From Mytilus galloprovincialis (Eukaryota > Mollusca > Bivalvia > Mytilida > Mytilidae), in NCBI RefSeq assembly GCF_965363235.1, contig NC_134845.1, positions 68,787,261-68,851,260 on the forward strand: a stretch of 64,000 nt of DNA. Reading direction: 5' to 3'. Numbering within the stretch: position 1 is the stretch's first letter; every line of letters begins with the position of its first letter. Shown in pieces: positions 18,666 through 37,292 of the stretch. The position numbers and the translations under genes are program-made. Below the pieces are notes generated by a model, which saw only the letters and a program-made list of their open reading frames with translations, made no database searches and was not told the origin of the DNA.

Positions 18666-18794
18666 TATAGCTGATTATAATACGATTGTATACAATGTCT
18701 TAATCCATTTGTTTTTAAAAAGAGGATATTGAAACCTAACAAAAGTAATTTCTGCAAATTGAAATGCTTTTCAGATATGATATAGTAAATAAAA

Positions 18795-21700
18795 ATGGAA
18801 TCACTAAGAACAGATCTGTGCACCCTCTGTACGGACGATGGAATATCTAATAACGCAGTCACGTGGTGCACAGAATGTGAAGGTTTTCTTTGTACAGATT
18901 GTGAAAAACATCACAAAAGATCAAAAGCCTCTAAGGAACATAGCACAATGTCCACTGTAAATTATCATACGTTACCGAAGTCCATACGTGAAACGAGTAA
19001 TAGGTGCAAAGGCCATGACAAAAAGTACGAACTTTATTGCTCTTCCCATGCAACGCCTTGTTGCATTCAATGTATCGCCGATACATACCAGAAGTGTCAA
19101 GACATGAAGCCATTGGCCGACATTTTGAAAGAAGTCAAGTCATCTGCTGCTATTCCGTTACTGAAAAACGATTTGAAAGATTTGAAAGAAAATTTTGAAG
19201 AGGTTATAAAACACATAGGAGACAGGATTAAAGCAATGAGCTCTCAAAAAGGAAAGGGAATCGATGAAATAAGATCCATGCGTAAATTACTAGATGAACA
19301 TTTCGATAAATTAGAAAGAGAAATTCTTGGCGATATAAATGACAAATATTCAAAAATAAAATCAAAGTTGGCGGAACTTGTTAAAGAAATGGAAAATAGA
19401 GCCAAATTGGTTGGTCAGTTGGAAGACGAGTTTAGTACAATGACAAAATATGCAACTGAATTGCAAATATATGTCGGTATGCAAGAACTTGAAAAAGCAG
19501 CATCAAAAGAAGCAAAATTCCTAGAAGATTTAGAAAGTGGAAGAAAGTTGCATGACAAAAACATAGAGATTAAAATTTTGTCAGAAGTATATTCAGTATT
19601 GCAAGATGTCTATTCCTTTGGAAAGATATCTATCAAGTCTACACATTTATGGTCCCTGGTAAGATAGGAAGAAAAGATCAAGCCCAGCTATTAGTTCCAC
19701 ATGTTCCGACGGTTCCTAAAACTGAGCCAATTCAACCATCACTAATGAAAAACCTGGAGTTCCTAAAAGGTAAATACTTCATATGTATATGCACATGTCA
19801 ATTATTGCCCTACAGTATATTAGTTTTTCACTTCTGATAAGAACAATTATTGATAATTTATAAAAAAGAAGATGTGGTATGATTGCCAATGAGACAACTA
19901 TCCACAAAAGACCAAAATGACACAGACATTATCAACTATAGATCACCGAACGGCCTTCAACAATGAGCAAAGCCCATACCGCATAGTCAGCTATAAAAGG
20001 CCCCGATAAGACAATGTAAAACAATTCAAACGAGAAAACTAACGGCCTCATTTATGTAAAAAATGAACGAAAAACAAATATGTAACACAAAAACAAACGA
20101 CAACCACTGAATTACAGACTCTTGACTTGGGACAGGCACAAACATAAATAATGTGGCGGGGTTAAACATGTTAGCGGGGTCCCAACCCTCCCCCTAACCT
20201 GGGACAGTGGTATAACAGTACAACATAAGAACGAACTATAAAAATCAGTTGAAAAAGGCTTAACTCATCAGATGGACAACAATACAAGTGGACGTGGCCG
20301 GGTACTTATACATCTCGACAAAAAAAGACACAATGAACAGACCTGAGAGTACTCGCAGTTATCTGACAGCTAGTTCAAAGCCACTAACAACTAATAAAAA
20401 ATCATGCATCTAAGACTAACCTATCAATCCTTACGCATCCAACATCCAATGGATTTAGTGTAAAGACGTCATAAACAGCCAGAGAAAAACATGACCTTGT
20501 GCAATGCCAATTTACAGGTATCGACAGATTGTAGATCCATGAATATGTATATATATATAACATACTAGTAATATTTAGTTGGCTTTTAATTTACTGATAA
20601 CAAAATCAATATCTATACCAATAAAAACAATATTCAATGATCTTATTACAGTGTTGAATAGTTAACCTTTTAGAATAAGTTTATTTAAAGGCGTGACAAG
20701 TTTACATGGATCATATCTAAATTTCCGGGCACGGTTAACAACATTTCCGTAAAAATGATGATGTGCTATCCCGTTTGAAATAAGTTTTCTACAGGTACAA
20801 CCAAACTTCAAAACTAAATCTTTATATCTATGGAAAAATTTAGTAAAAGTTTTAAGTAATTTATGGTAACGATATCCCTGGTTTAATAATTTACCAGTAA
20901 TACATAGGCTGCGTTCGTTAAAATCAAAAACATCACAACAGACACGGGCATAGCGAACAAGTCGTGAAATATAAACACCGTAAGATGGTGCCAAAGGAAC
21001 ATTACCATCTAAAAATGGAAGATTAACAATAGGGAACGAAAAATCGTCACTTGTCGTAAATTTTAGTGTGGAGTTTCCCGTTTAAAACCGAAATATCTAA
21101 ATCCAGGAAAGGACAGTTATTATCGAATAAATTTGATTTATTTAAAGTAAGTTCCTTAGGGTAAATTTCAGCAGTATTTTAAGAAAATTCTTGATTATTT
21201 AACGAAAAAATATCGTCAAGATAACGGTAAGTGTTGTTGAATTTATCAATTAAATGCAATTTCGACGGGTCTTTACTGAGTTTAGTCATAAATTGTGATT
21301 CGTAACAGTACAAAAACAAGTCTTCTATTAAAGGGGCACAATTAGTGCCCATGGGGATACCTACAACCTGTCGATAAACTTTGTTGCCGAAACGTACATC
21401 AATATTATCAAGGAGAAAATTAACAGCTTCAATCATCTCATCACACCTCCAGTAAGTATATCTACTGTGAAAGTACTTTTATTCGTGGGGTACCAATTTT
21501 CGTGGTTTTCGTGGATGACTTTATCCACGAATTTAAGTTTCCAACGAAATAAAACAACCATTGTCCAAATCAAGACATGGAAAGATCCCCGTCGGTAGGT
21601 TTGACTACTGATATAATCTTGAGAATATATTGAATAACGCCAAATCTGAGAATACTTTAATAGCAGTCACAGAACTACAACCACATGCAGGATTATACTC

Positions 21701-30920: not shown

Positions 30921-32165
30921 AGGTAAGGTTTGCATGAAACCTGGATTTTTTTCTTAGTGACATTATACCAATATGATACATCATTTTGTTCAGGGAGGAG
31001 TACCCAATCATTCAATGACAAAAAATCGAACATCGCCCGTCCCGTTTTTTCCGGTGAAAAGCTCAAAATTCCGATTTTTGACGATTTCTAGGGAAAATTG
31101 TATTTGAATTCTTCTGAAATAATAATGTATGCGAGTGAGTATAATAATATAAAACTGAATAAAACATGTATAAATAATTGTGGTCCATTCATAAATAATA
31201 AATTTTAATTAAAAAAATCATAAAAAAGTTCCTAAAAACAAGATTTTTTCATTTCTAGGTTTAAAAAAACCCTGTTGCCATGGCAACAAAAAGCCAAAAA
31301 CATCCCTTTTCCGGGTCCACCGTTTTGTAAAATTTTAACTATTTCACAGTGTAGATACTATTCTGTACGCTATCCGGAAGTCGCGATTTTCGAAGCGAGA
31401 ACTTTTTGGATCACATTTTAAATTTGATGGGTATACTGAATTAAGCGGTAAGTTGATCATCTGTACATTGCTTAATCAGCCGACATCGATATTCTCAAAT
31501 GGTTTAGAATTAAATTCCGCACATTCAATATTCGTGTCTTTGCCTTAATCAAGAGATTTTCAAGTGCATCACTAAGAAAAATCAGTCGGCGAACCTAAAA
31601 ACAATCTTTTTACCTTCTTAGTGTACAAATTAACGTAAAAACCAGACTTAATTAACTCAATAAAGTATATTTCAAGTGGTGGTAAAAGTTTCAACCAGAT
31701 CTTTGAAGCCAGAAATAAGATAATTACACTTGTTTGAATTTCACACTGTACGATCAGTCTCGCTTGTTTATCTTAAAACTGTATGATCAGTCTTTATGTC
31801 ACTGTATTCTAGTGGTGATTTCAAAGTTATTTATACATTAGAAGGTGGCATTTTTCTAAATAACACAAATATATTTCAATACATTCACATCCTGAAAACT
31901 TATGAAACATGTTTTAGCTTGATAGGGTGTACTCGACTTACCGGTACTACATTAATTATAAGGATGTTTAAATGTTGCTAAAATAAGAGGAAGGTTTGAT
32001 GTATACTAGTATATAAGTTTCAGAAGTGTCCTCCGTTATACTTAAAATTATACAAACACACAGATTTAATTGTTATATAAAAATGCATGCATTTACACAC
32101 ATTCGAGGCCGTACTGTAGCCTATAATTGATCACAGTTCCTTCACTTTGTTTAAGATGTAGAGCT

Positions 32166-32345
32166 ATATAAAAAAGAAGATGTGGTATGATTGCCATTGA
32201 GACAACTATCCACAAAAGACCAAAATGACACAGACATTAACAACTATAGGTCACCGTACGGCCTTCAACAATGAGCAAAGCCCATACCGCATAGTGAGCT
32301 ATAAAAGGCCCCAATAAGACAATGTAAAACAATTCAAACGAGAAA
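32166..32345 (-). repeat. R1 tail repeat, 5'-truncated
   Basis: AAGAAGATGTGGTATGATTG and about 170 bp following match the tail at 19858-20040. It lies inside the CACAGTG element. Confidence 0.85.
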
Positions 32346-32848
32346 ACTGTCTCTTTGACACTCAATTGTACACCACTTTGTCAAGCGGGGGGTTATAGTG
32401 ATAAAGAAGTCCGTCTTTCCGTTCGTCCGTTGGACCGGTACAATATGTTTCGCCGGTTTTGTAAGCGCATCCATTTTTAAATGGAGAGGGGTCCAATCCA
32501 GGAGAAAAGGGGATTCCCTTTTTTTGAATCCGTCACTGATATAACTATTAATTAATCTTATTCGGATTCCTTATCATAAATGATAATGACTGTATTGTGT
32601 ACCGTCTATTTCGAATTTTACTAAAAATCTTTTATGGGGTTACTTTATATAAGATACGGACTTGAACATTACATTATATGGGGGTACCCATCAGGTATTT
32701 CCAACACCTTCTAAACCAATCCTTAAAGTTTTCTGAAATTGCTCCATTTTTACTCGATTAATGCATTATGGACCTTCTATTTCTGTAAACTTACCAAAAT
32801 TATATCACATGAATTATCCCCCTACACAAAGCTGTCTTTATCCATTTT

Positions 32849-35349
32849 TAGTTCACCTGGCCTTAAAGGCCAAGTGAGCTTTTCTCATCACTTGGCGTCC
32901 GGCGTCCGTCGTCGTCCGTCGTCGTCGTTAACTTTTACAAAAATCTTCTCCTCTGAAACTACTGGACCAAATTAAACCAAACTTGGCCACAATCATCATT
33001 GGGGTATCCAGTTTAAAAAATGTGTCCGGTGACCCGGCCAACCATCCAAGATGGCCGCCATGGCTAAAAATAGAACATAGGGGTAAAAGGCAGTTTTTGG
33101 CTTATAACTCAAAAACCAAAGCATTTAGAGCAAATCTGACATGGGGTAGAATTGTTAAACAGGTGGAGATCTATCTGCCCTGAAATTTTCAGATGAATCA
33201 GATAACCCGTTGTTGGGTTGCTGCCCCTGAATTAGTAATTTTAAGGATATTTTGCTCTTTTTGGTTATTATCTTGAATATTATTATAGATAGAGATAAAC
33301 AGTAAACAGCAATAATGTTCAACAAAGTAAGATTTACAAATAAGTCAACACGACTGAAATGGTTAGTTGACCCCTTTAGGAGTTATTGCCCTTTATAGTC
33401 AATTTTTAACCATTTTTGGTAAATCTTAGTAATATTTTACAAAAATCTTCTCCTCTGAAACTACTGGGCCAAATTAATCCAAACTTGGCCACAATCATCT
33501 TTTGGGTTAGTATTGAGAACTAGAGGCTCTAAAGAGCCTGTGTCGCTCACCTTGGTCTATGTGCATATTAAACAAAGGACACAAATGGATTCATGACAAA
33601 ATTGTATTTTGGTGATGGTGATGTGTTTGAAGTTCTTACTTTCTGAACGATTTTGCTTCTTACAATATTATCTATAATGAACTTTGCCCATTAGTAACAG
33701 AGAACTATATTTGGTAAAAATTTACATAAATTTACCAAATTAATGAAAATTGTTAAAAATTGACTATAAAGGGCAATAACTCCTTAAGGGGTCAATTGAC
33801 CATTAAGGTCACGTTGACTTATTTGTAGATCTTACTTTGCTGAACATTATTGCTGTTTACAGTTTATCGCTATCTATAATAGTATTCAAGATAACCAAAA
33901 ACGGCAAAATTTCTTTAAAAATTACCATTTGGAGGGCAGCAACCCAACAACCAGTTGTCCAATTCATCTGAAAAATTCAGGGCAGATAGATATTGACTTG
34001 ATTAACAAATTAACTTCTTGTCAGATTTGCTCTAAATGCTTTGGTTTCATAGTTATAAGCCAAAAACTGCATTTTACCCCTATGTTCTATTTTTAGCTGT
34101 GGCGGCCATCTTAGTTGGTTGACCAGGTCACGCCACACATTTTTTAAACTAGATACCCCAAAGATGATTGTGGCCAAGTTTGGATTAATTTGGCCCAGTA
34201 GTTTCAGAGGAGAAGATTTTTGTAAAAGATTACTTTAATTTACAAAAAATGGTTAAAAATTGACTATAAAGGGCAATAACTCCTACACGGGTCAACTGAC
34301 CATTTTGGTCATGTTGACTTATTTGTAGATCTTACTGTGCTGAACATTATTGCTTTTTACAGTTTATCTCTATCTATAATAATATTCAAGATAATAACCA
34401 AAAACAGCAAAATTTCCTCAAAATTACCAATTCAGGGGCAGCAACCCAACAACCGATTGACCGATTCATCTGAAAATTTCAGGGCAGATAGATCTTGACC
34501 TAATAAACATTTTTATCCCATGTCAGATTTCCTCAAAATGCTTTGGTTTTTGAGTTATAAGCCAAAAACTGCATTTTACCCCTATGTTCTATTTTTAGCT
34601 GTGGCGGCCATCTTGGTTGGTTGACCAGGTCACGCCACATATTTTTTAAACTAGATACCCCAAAGATGATTGTGGCCAAGTTTGGATTAATTTGGCCCAG
34701 TAGTTTCAGAGGAGAAGATTTTTGTAAAAGATTACTTTAATTTACGAAAAATGGTTAAAAATTGACTATAAAGGGCAATAACTCCTAAACGGGTCAACTG
34801 ACCATTTTGGTCATGTTGACTTATTTGTAGATCTTACTTTGCTGAACATTATTGTTGTTTACAGTTTATCTCTATCTATAATAATATTCAAGATAATAAC
34901 CAAAAACAGCAAAATTTCCTCAAAATTACCAATTCAGGGGCAGTAACCCAACAACCGATTGACCGATTCATCTGAAAATTTCAGGGCAGATAGATCTTGA
35001 CCTGATAAACATTTTTACCCCACGTCAGATTTGCTCTAAATGCTTTGGTTTTTGAGTTATAAGCCAAAAACTGCATTTTACCCCTATGTTCTATTTTTAG
35101 CCGTGGCGGCCATCTTGGTTGGTTGACCGGGTCACGCCACACATTTTTTAAACTAGATACCCCAATGATGATTGTGGCCAAGTTTGGTTTGATTTGGCCC
35201 AGTAGTTTCAGAGGAGAAGATTTTTGTAAAAGTTAACGACGACGGACGACGGACGACGACGGACGACGGACGACGACGGACGACGACGACGGACGCCGGA
35301 CGCAAAGTGATGGGAATAGCTCACTTGGCCCTTCGGGCCAGGTGAGCTA
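32849..35349. mobile_element. foldback element A (AGTTCACCTGGCC ends)
   Basis: The left end TTCACCTGGCCTTAAAGGCC mirrors the right end (GGCCCTTCGGGCCAGGTGAG at about 35328-35347). Each end has a small GGCC hairpin followed by a GTCCGTCGTCG-rich run. The interior consists of ~500-bp units (landmarks CTTCTCCTCTGAAACTACTG and AACTTGGCCACAATCATC) in plus orientation on the left and minus orientation on the right. This family is abundant in molluscs. There is no transposase. Open frames repeated at 32983 and 34981 are copies of this unit. Confidence 0.75.
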
Positions 35350-36465
35350 AAAATGTGTCCGGTGACCCGGCCATCAAACCAAGATGGCCGCCATGGCTAA
35401 AAATAGAACATGGGGTAAAATGCAGTTTTTGGCTTATAACTCAATACCCAAAGCATTTAGAGCAAAACTGACATGGGGTAGAATTGTTTATCAGTTCAAG
35501 ATCTATCTGCCCTGAAATTTTCAGATGAATCGGACAACCCGTTGTTAGGTTTCTGGCCCTGAATTAGTAATTTTAAGGAAATTTTGCTCTTTTTGGTTAT
35601 TATCTTGAATATTATTATAGATAGAGATAAACTATAAACAGCAATAATGTTCAGCAAAGTAAGATTTACAAATAAGTCAACATGACTGAAATGGTCAGTT
35701 GACCCCTTTAGGAGTTATTGCCCTTTATAGTCAATTTTTAACCATTTTTCGTAAATCTTAGTAATCTTTTACAAAAATCTTCTCCTCTGAAACTACTTGG
35801 CCAAATTAATCCAAACTTGGCCATAATCATCTTTTGAGTTAGTAGTTTGAAAAATGTGTCCGGTGACCCGGCCATCCAATCAAGATGGCCGCCATGGCTA
35901 AAAATAGAACATGGGGTAAAATGCAGCTTTTGGCTTATAACTCAAAAAACAAAGCGTTTAGAGCAAATCTGACATGGGGTAAAATTGTTTATCAGGTCAA
36001 CATTTATCTGCTCTGAAATATTTAGATGAATCGGACAACCCGTTGTTGGGTTGCTGACCCTGAATTGTTAGTTTTAAGGAAATTTTGCTGTTTTTGGTCA
36101 TTATCTTGAATATTATTATTGATAGAGATAAACTGTAAACAACAATAATGTTCAGCAAAGTAAGATTTACAAATAAGTCAACATGACCGAAATGGTTAAT
36201 TGACCCCCTTAGGAGTTATTGTTCTTTATTGTCAATTTTTAACAATTTTCATAAAATTTGTAAATTTTTACTAACATTTTCCACTGAAACTAATGGGCCA
36301 AGTTCATTATAGATAGAGATAATTTTAAGCAGCAAGAATGTTCAGTAAAGTAAGATGTACAAACACATCACCATCACCAAAATACAATTTTGTCATGAAT
36401 CCATCTGCTTCCTCTTATATTCACATAGACCAAGGTGAGCGACACAGGCTCTTTAGAGCCTCTAG
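33520..36465. mobile_element. foldback element B, interlaced with element A
   Basis: The left end CTAGAGGCTCTAAAGAGCCT, continuing to GCTCACCTTGGTCTATGTG, is mirrored at 36422-36465. Mirror similarity continues inward (ATGGTGATGTGTTTG at about 33616 against CACATCACCATCACC at 36364). Its inner arms are the same ~500-bp unit as element A. It starts inside A and ends beyond it, so the two overlap rather than nest. Confidence 0.7.
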
Positions 36466-37292
36466 TTTGTTATTTCAAAAGACAAGCTTGATTTTTGTTA
36501 TCATCAATTGGTCAACGGCGGACGGTGTAAATAATCTTTAAAAATGTAATAGCTAAGCAGATAACTGTAACGATACACTATTACAAAGTCCAGAAGCGAA
36601 TCATGTATTACTTTTTAGGCATTTGATAAGATTGATGGAACAAAAATACAATTATTTTGCCGTCTAAAAAATTCATCAGAAATATATTTGTTTTGTCTGA
36701 TGAAAGTAATTACACGTTATAATAACCTTGATAGTTCATAATATCACATATACACGTATATACCTTCAAATTGCTGTTGTTTTTTCTTCAAAATCACGAC
36801 TGGTCATACAGTCAAAAAATCTGAAATCGCTTCTAGAATACAGTCAGTTCTAGACTGATCGTACAGTAATTTATTTTGGGATCCTCAAGGAAAACATATT
36901 TTTTATGGGAAATACGAATATTCTACTTAAATACGAAAAGAATATTGAAACAGTATATATTTAACTGTAAACTGATGCAAATATTTGCAATAAAAGATTA
37001 TTTGCTTTGTACTACGAGAGCAAAATTGTCCATCGATTTCACTTTTTCTACCAAGTTGATGTGATGCACACGTATATTTTATATTCTAATGCATGTTTTT
37101 GTTACAGTTACTCATATTTATGATGCTATATATACCTTGAAGATGTTCAAAGCACTTTGTAGATATTGAAGTAAACACATGATGAGAAAAAGTTACCGTA
37201 GGCAAAACCGTCCTGTTAGCCAGTTGGAAATCATCGCTTCGAAAATCGCGACTTCCGGATAGCGTACAGAATAGTATCTACACTGTGTATTT

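Follow-up and report, generated by a model that had tools for sequence, protein, structure and literature searches.

Transib and the RAG-like (RAGL) transposons, ProtoRAG among them, have terminal inverted repeats (TIRs) that start with CAC and produce 5-bp target-site duplications (TSDs). The consensus heptamer of the recombination signal sequence (RSS) is given as CACAGTG, and a GC bias is described for the TSDs of ProtoRAG, Transib and RAG (PMC8289069); for protostome RAGL TIRs the consensus is CACTWMCAAACKTYKBB, with AAA at positions 8–10, and RAGL elements are reported from oysters and RAG1L/RAG2L genes from a mussel (PMC7204232). The group formed by CMC plus Transib is characterized by mostly CA...TG ends and TSDs of 2–5 bp (PMC12730594), and one Transib element is recorded in a survey of mollusc genomes (PMC10294476). 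A YqaJ gene, in turn, is described from ISL2EU of the PHIS superfamily, where it occupies a second open reading frame beside a separate transposase, in autonomous elements that average ~4.8 kb and have TIRs usually starting GG (PMC4482050). Here we analyzed a 64,000-nucleotide stretch of the Mytilus galloprovincialis genome (the window; contig NC_134845.1, positions 68,787,261 to 68,851,260 of the forward strand), in which an earlier note, made from the letters alone, had marked 31340–37292 as a non-autonomous member of the Transib/RAG superfamily with RSS-heptamer ends. The element belongs to a real, young family of non-autonomous cut-and-paste DNA transposons, for which we observe exact ends, a 5-bp stagger, empty sites, conserved ends and recent spread; the window copy is non-coding and has moved recently. 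The family resembles RAG and Transib in its ends and stagger, and membership of that superfamily is not supported. In the reading that we consider likely, a YqaJ-bearing element of the cut-and-paste kind has the window copy among its non-autonomous relatives; the mobilizing partner is most likely a 12.6-kb element elsewhere in the same genome, and the RSS-like ends are probably convergent.

Ends, target sites and empty sites

The transposon copy occupies 31345–37287 (+), a length of 5,943 bp to which a nested insert contributes, and its TSDs lie outside these coordinates: TATTT stands at 31340–31344 and again at 37288–37292, as had been described, so that the earlier range delimited a real element and took in both duplications. 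The 54-bp TIRs with their CACAGTG start are indeed perfect when read inward from 31345 and from 37287 (left TIR 31345–31398, +; right TIR 37234–37287, −). Within the window the 21-bp terminus occurs exactly twice, once on each strand, where 0.00 occurrences are expected from 100 shuffles, and an inverted repeat formed by chance is thereby ruled out. The genome that contains the window comprises 331 contigs and 1.385 Gb. A search of it with the 30-bp terminus, in line with the earlier note's suggestion to look for other copies with the 54-bp end, gave 545 matches with at most two mismatches, 273 forward and 272 reverse, compared with 0 and 0 for the reversed-pattern control. Twenty-two of the 40 genome matches listed begin at the first base of CACAGTG and the remainder 1–5 bases further out; because of where these other copies start, the element boundary at CACAGTG is independently fixed. 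Labelled copies and stretches from this genome are referred to by L-numbers, and its contigs by C-numbers.

Identical 5-bp repeats flank 33 of the 34 copies in which both ends are readable (25/26 with the window copy included, a further 6/6, L036, and the 12.6-kb element on contig C2), and the single exception, L032, has one base different. The tally leaves out L021 and L025, whose right ends fall outside the stretch; L050 and L051, with a damaged or missing left end; L043–L048, which are partial probes; and L001–L008, which are short stretches of the window copy and of copies counted elsewhere at full length. When repeat lengths from 2 to 11 were tried in 19 copies, 5 bp was the longest match every time. 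Thirty-one of the TSDs comprise 29 different sequences, and the proposed non-autonomous TIR transposon with a 5-bp duplication that differs from copy to copy is borne out, the length holding throughout save for the mismatch in L032. The TSDs are AT-rich: G+C accounts for 23/125 letters against 31% in the flanks (P 0.0005, against flank 5-mers), and for 29/155 over the 31 TSDs.

Empty sites are present in related repeats for L017, L018 and L024, where the joined flanks match element-free loci at 82, 94 and 99% identity, respectively, and the 5-mer is present once in each of these loci. Less clean alignments were also obtained: L024 against L013 shows ACCAA in place of ACTAA, and both a second alignment of L024 with L009 and that of L034 with L029 contain gaps at the insertion site. 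L010 gave low-identity matches to its own flank, and these matches were left out. As a separate observation, the short word GTCTTGTCCGTAGACA, which is repeated at irregular spacing in L037:2880–4100, also occurs where L018 is inserted and at the matching empty site in L015.

Anatomy and history of the family

The length of 5.94 kb was rejected as the true length of the element, since the usual copy measures ~2.4 kb and the remainder of the window copy is an unrelated, nested 3.6-kb repeat at 32854–36465. The left portion of the element proper (31345–32853, +) aligns with positions 1–1616 of the 2.44-kb copy L013 with one gap and at 93–95% identity, and the right portion (36466–37287, +) aligns with positions 1611–2443 at 95.4% identity. 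The insert contains inverted units of ~500 bp and is foreign to the transposon family; it is missing from the 2.44-kb copy and found also in L021. Its outer parts form two interleaved inverted-repeat pairs, 32843–32928/35270–35355 and 33518–33577/36408–36467.

Four sites of the motif CTGTAYGAYCAGTC are mirror-placed ~400 bp inside the ends, as the earlier note had seen, and all four are without mismatch: CTGTACGATCAGTC at 31746–31759 (+), CTGTATGATCAGTC at 31779–31792 (+), CTGTATGACCAGTC at 36798–36811 (−), and CTGTACGATCAGTC again at 36853–36866 (−). With up to two mismatches allowed, shuffled sequences contained a mean of 0.69 and a maximum of 3 such sites. Conservation was measured by comparing L013 with 12 loci from other subfamilies, of which two are partial. 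The left TIR is 99.1% identical compared with 92.1% for the next 66 bp, and the right TIR 99.6% compared with 91.8% for the adjoining 89 bp. The internal motifs reach 98.7–100% (140/140 aligned letters at each of the two left sites, and 98.7% and 99.4% of 154 aligned letters at 36798 and 36853, respectively), while the surrounding subterminal 14-mers average 93.1%. Two figures count against a special standing of the motifs: 24% of all subterminal 14-mers likewise reach 98%, and the motif-bearing blocks (95.0%) are no better kept than the neighbouring positions 496–640 (95.7%). We therefore take the conservation of the TIRs as strong and that of the motifs as suggestive; the motifs are candidate sites for a transposase or a cofactor.

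Eighteen window-type copies with more than 500 aligned positions diverge by 0.50–2.15% from the majority sequence, and the window copy by 1.38%, which, together with the empty sites of three other copies, agrees with the fairly recent movement that had been suggested from the perfect ends. These figures leave out L017, L018 and L020, with 108–116 aligned positions each; L029, a different type, lies 5.3% from the majority sequence. Further subfamilies comprise a 2.05-kb type (L034, L035), a 3.0-kb type (L040–L042) and the L032/L039 type. The end of L037 is 99–100% identical at seven loci including L037 itself, and the other six, probed over ~700 bp, belong to the 3.0-kb type.

The usual copy, as represented by L013, has no frame of at least 90 codons. 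L009, L015, L022, L028, L029, L030, L031 and L037 were considered as the autonomous form and rejected, as they carry inserts that the family does not share or have no long frame. In two copies with right ends beyond the stretch, L021 and L025, the longest frames are 168 and 115 codons, respectively, and no transposase was recognized in them by eye, no library search having been made. A literature search by text, not by sequence, found no published description of the family, which may be catalogued in Repbase. One of the rejected copies carries a further insert: L031:2188–5986 is a 3.8-kb segment whose inverted ends are nearly identical (..GGTCATTTTCAAAAAATGTAGATAT) and whose junction shows an overlap of 4 bp. 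It contains two open frames, one of 779 codons, without a Pfam match above cut-off, and one of 186 codons, and may be an intact transposon belonging to a different group.

A 12.6-kb relative with a YqaJ frame

A 12,620-bp element at C2:22321503–22334122 has both 30-bp family termini exactly and the TSD TGTAC on both sides. Its subterminal DNA is 97.9% like that of L040, a member of the 3.0-kb subfamily, over 731 bp, and the subterminal identity to L013 amounts to 89% over 509 bp (L049 versus L013). A link from the non-coding copies to a gene is provided by L050, a 3.7-kb copy with a peptide scrap that shows a zinc-finger-like pattern behind an apparent splice acceptor. Of 22 candidates from a genome search with the L050 peptide, 9 were matches. 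Over its first 32 residues the scrap has an 88% match in open frames of 1,511 codons on C2, between the termini of the 12,620-bp element, 663 codons on C5 and 110 codons on C7, and weaker matches are found on C1 (84%, 61 codons) and, with one stop, on C3 (69%). The distance from the start of the scrap to the family end is 1.36 kb on C2 and 1.41–1.42 kb on C5 and C7. Faint scraps of the same exon are present in L040, L041 and L042 (E 5e-5 to 8e-5). A second peptide, from L037/L050, was set aside; it gave the impression of non-coding, repetitive DNA, and Pfam showed no match to it.

The frame on C2 matches the YqaJ domain (PF09588, E 4.7e-8, above cut-off) and the RecE-like phrog_434 (E 7.5e-10), with the NCBIfam lambda-exonuclease model below its cut-off. 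Past YqaJ it continues stop-free into SDLDR...PVGFSMKGYSL...PVVSFDGQW, a segment that, judged by eye, would supply the first two of the acidic residues in an RNase-H-type core. The YqaJ-bearing fragment has 84 matches in the genome (86 of 114 candidates scored), several of them in frames of more than 1,000 codons at 32–46% identity, with relatives at 46% standing at C9:83881025 and C9:26323017; as judged by these matches, its relatives are a large and diverse protein family in this one genome. No relatives of the fragment were found in viral_contigs, and a PDB search with it gave two matches with E ~0.2. The earlier note had expected an autonomous relative with a RAG1- or Transib-type core and had named an unrelated transposase as the finding that would speak against its proposal; the 1,511-codon YqaJ frame of the 12.6-kb relative, whose core was read in part, comes close to the latter.

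We propose that a transposase from the 12.6-kb C2 element would recognize the 54-bp ends, probably assisted by the mirrored CTGTAYGAYCAGTC pairs ~400 bp inside, would cleave at the terminal CAC, and would integrate into AT-rich sites with a stagger of 5 bp. The 1,511-codon protein is the putative transposase and would bind the TIR, perhaps together with the internal motifs. Internal deletions in the 12.6-kb element may have given rise to the non-coding copies: gene scraps argue for such an origin in the case of L050 and, weakly, of L040–L042, and for the window type only the shared ends would point to it.

Origin of the ends and competing explanations

An identity as a non-autonomous Transib or RAGL transposon with inherited CACAGTG, whose autonomous member would encode a RAG1-type DDE transposase with C2C and H3-4H zinc motifs, would account for the features that the family shares with these elements: the TIR starts CAC, CACAGTG equals the RSS consensus heptamer, and the TSD is 5 bp in 33/34 copies. 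The family differs from them in having a perfect TIR of 54 bp, accompanied by paired motifs further inside, and in its 12.6-kb candidate partner, which encodes a YqaJ domain; we know of no RAG or Transib element with this nuclease domain. The missing nonamer, of which the earlier note had warned, is indeed absent at either spacing, as ACAAAAACC is matched at 1/9 letters at spacing 12 and 3/9 at spacing 23, and at 5/9 at best anywhere in the TIR. Two weak searches for a RAG1-like gene, with the RAG1 Pfam model PF12940 (whose control gave a signal in 0/14 genomes) and with a Transib C-terminal peptide, gave 0 matches each and had no positive control. The occurrence of RAGL elements in oysters and of RAG1L/RAG2L genes in a mussel favors inheritance, whereas the fit to the protostome RAGL consensus is poor, with 8 of 17 positions fitting, CAC included, and positions 8–10 reading TAG, so that two of the three A are missing (PMC7204232). 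Moreover, the AT-rich target sites differ from the GC bias described for ProtoRAG, Transib and RAG (PMC8289069), and the mollusc survey lists its one Transib element (PMC10294476). Altogether we regard a Transib or RAGL identity as improbable, and the superfamily assignment of the earlier note is not supported. Because the likely parent carries a nuclease-bearing protein and no RAG-type enzyme is visible, the RSS-like ends are probably convergent rather than inherited from a Transib ancestor.

Several points weigh against the reading in which the YqaJ-bearing element mobilizes the family. What ties the window copy to the C2 element is the TIRs, the subterminal DNA (the 89% over 509 bp of L049/L013) and the TSD length only, and no scrap of the YqaJ gene was detected in the window copy. 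The part of the C2 gene that was read comprises 1,730 bp (L052, L053) and ends in the predicted D...D pattern, and the 130-aa segment with this pattern has no Pfam match. C5 and C7 each have one family end located, the relatives lying from 96082592 on C5 and up to 5165838 on C7; the C7 match has two stops, and the C5 match is split by ~2.3 kb. There may, in addition, be remote kinship within the CMC plus Transib clade. The YqaJ gene could be a passenger, the true transposase being encoded elsewhere, for example in the rest of the 12.6-kb element or by another family; the partial read and the two gene scraps lying 8.6 kb apart on C2 would fit this, and we consider it unlikely in view of the similar distance from gene to family end in three copies, the scraps in L050 and, weakly, in L040–L042, and a frame that runs beyond YqaJ into an RNase-H-like D...D pattern, recognized by eye. 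A precedent for such an arrangement is ISL2EU, with YqaJ on its second open reading frame and a separate transposase (PMC4482050). ISL2EU itself, which is alike in having a YqaJ exonuclease gene in a DNA transposon (here PF09588 in the 12.6-kb element), was rejected: the family has CA...TG ends where those of ISL2EU are usually GG, a 5-bp TSD, and a 12.6-kb element where the description gives ~4.8 kb. A search for the hAT dimer domain gave no match within 65 kb of 186 sampled ends (of the 545), with 140 matches placed of 150 scored from 638 candidates. To our knowledge YqaJ is not a feature of hAT elements, and CACAG keeps A2 and G5 of what we take to be the hAT terminus rule. The latter would suit mobilization by hAT5, a hAT group whose families are described as making 5-bp TSDs (PMC12730594). 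With 0 of the 140 placed hAT matches near the sampled ends, we judge this explanation highly improbable. Academ proteins are large and multi-domain, with extra nucleases, and the similarly large, multi-domain 12.6-kb element could represent an Academ lineage with an unusual TSD length, which is a question of classification compatible with the explanation that we prefer. Academ is common in bivalves (PMC10294476), whereas its TSDs, compared by description, are 3–4 bp in AcademX and 9–10 bp in AcademH (PMC10045372), unlike the 5 bp in 33/34 copies here; we find this assignment doubtful. KolobokP, a mollusc DNA transposon present in Mytilus with TSDs of 3–5 bp, was rejected on its described RR...YY termini and long terminal direct repeats (PMC9587614), in contrast to the CA...TG termini and inverted ends of the family.

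The explanation that we favor remains a YqaJ-bearing partner with convergent RSS-like ends, and the interest of the family lies in this candidate partner, not in a RAG link. More tentatively, and with less confidence, we suggest an undescribed eukaryotic cut-and-paste lineage in which RSS-heptamer ends and a 5-bp stagger would have evolved apart from RAG/Transib, and in which a large transposase, combining a zinc-finger-like start, a YqaJ/RecE-type nuclease and an RNase-H-type core, would drive young non-autonomous subfamilies via TIRs and paired internal motifs. If this is true, a CAC heptamer and a 5-bp stagger alone would be no mark of RAG/Transib ancestry, which matters for end-based searches of invertebrate RAG-like elements. 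Within a single genome this young family would also provide hundreds of termini together with empty sites, and it comes with candidate binding sites in its interior and a candidate for the autonomous partner, whose 1,511-codon frame is open; what a nuclease contributes when it is fused ahead of a possible transposase core could be tested in it directly.

Two further features of the window lie outside the element. A 139-codon frame at 20662–21081 (−) has a close relative in L030 within another family copy, and represents a dispersed repeat with coding content. At 18789–19667 (+), a 292-codon open frame contains B-box zinc fingers (PF22586, PF00643).

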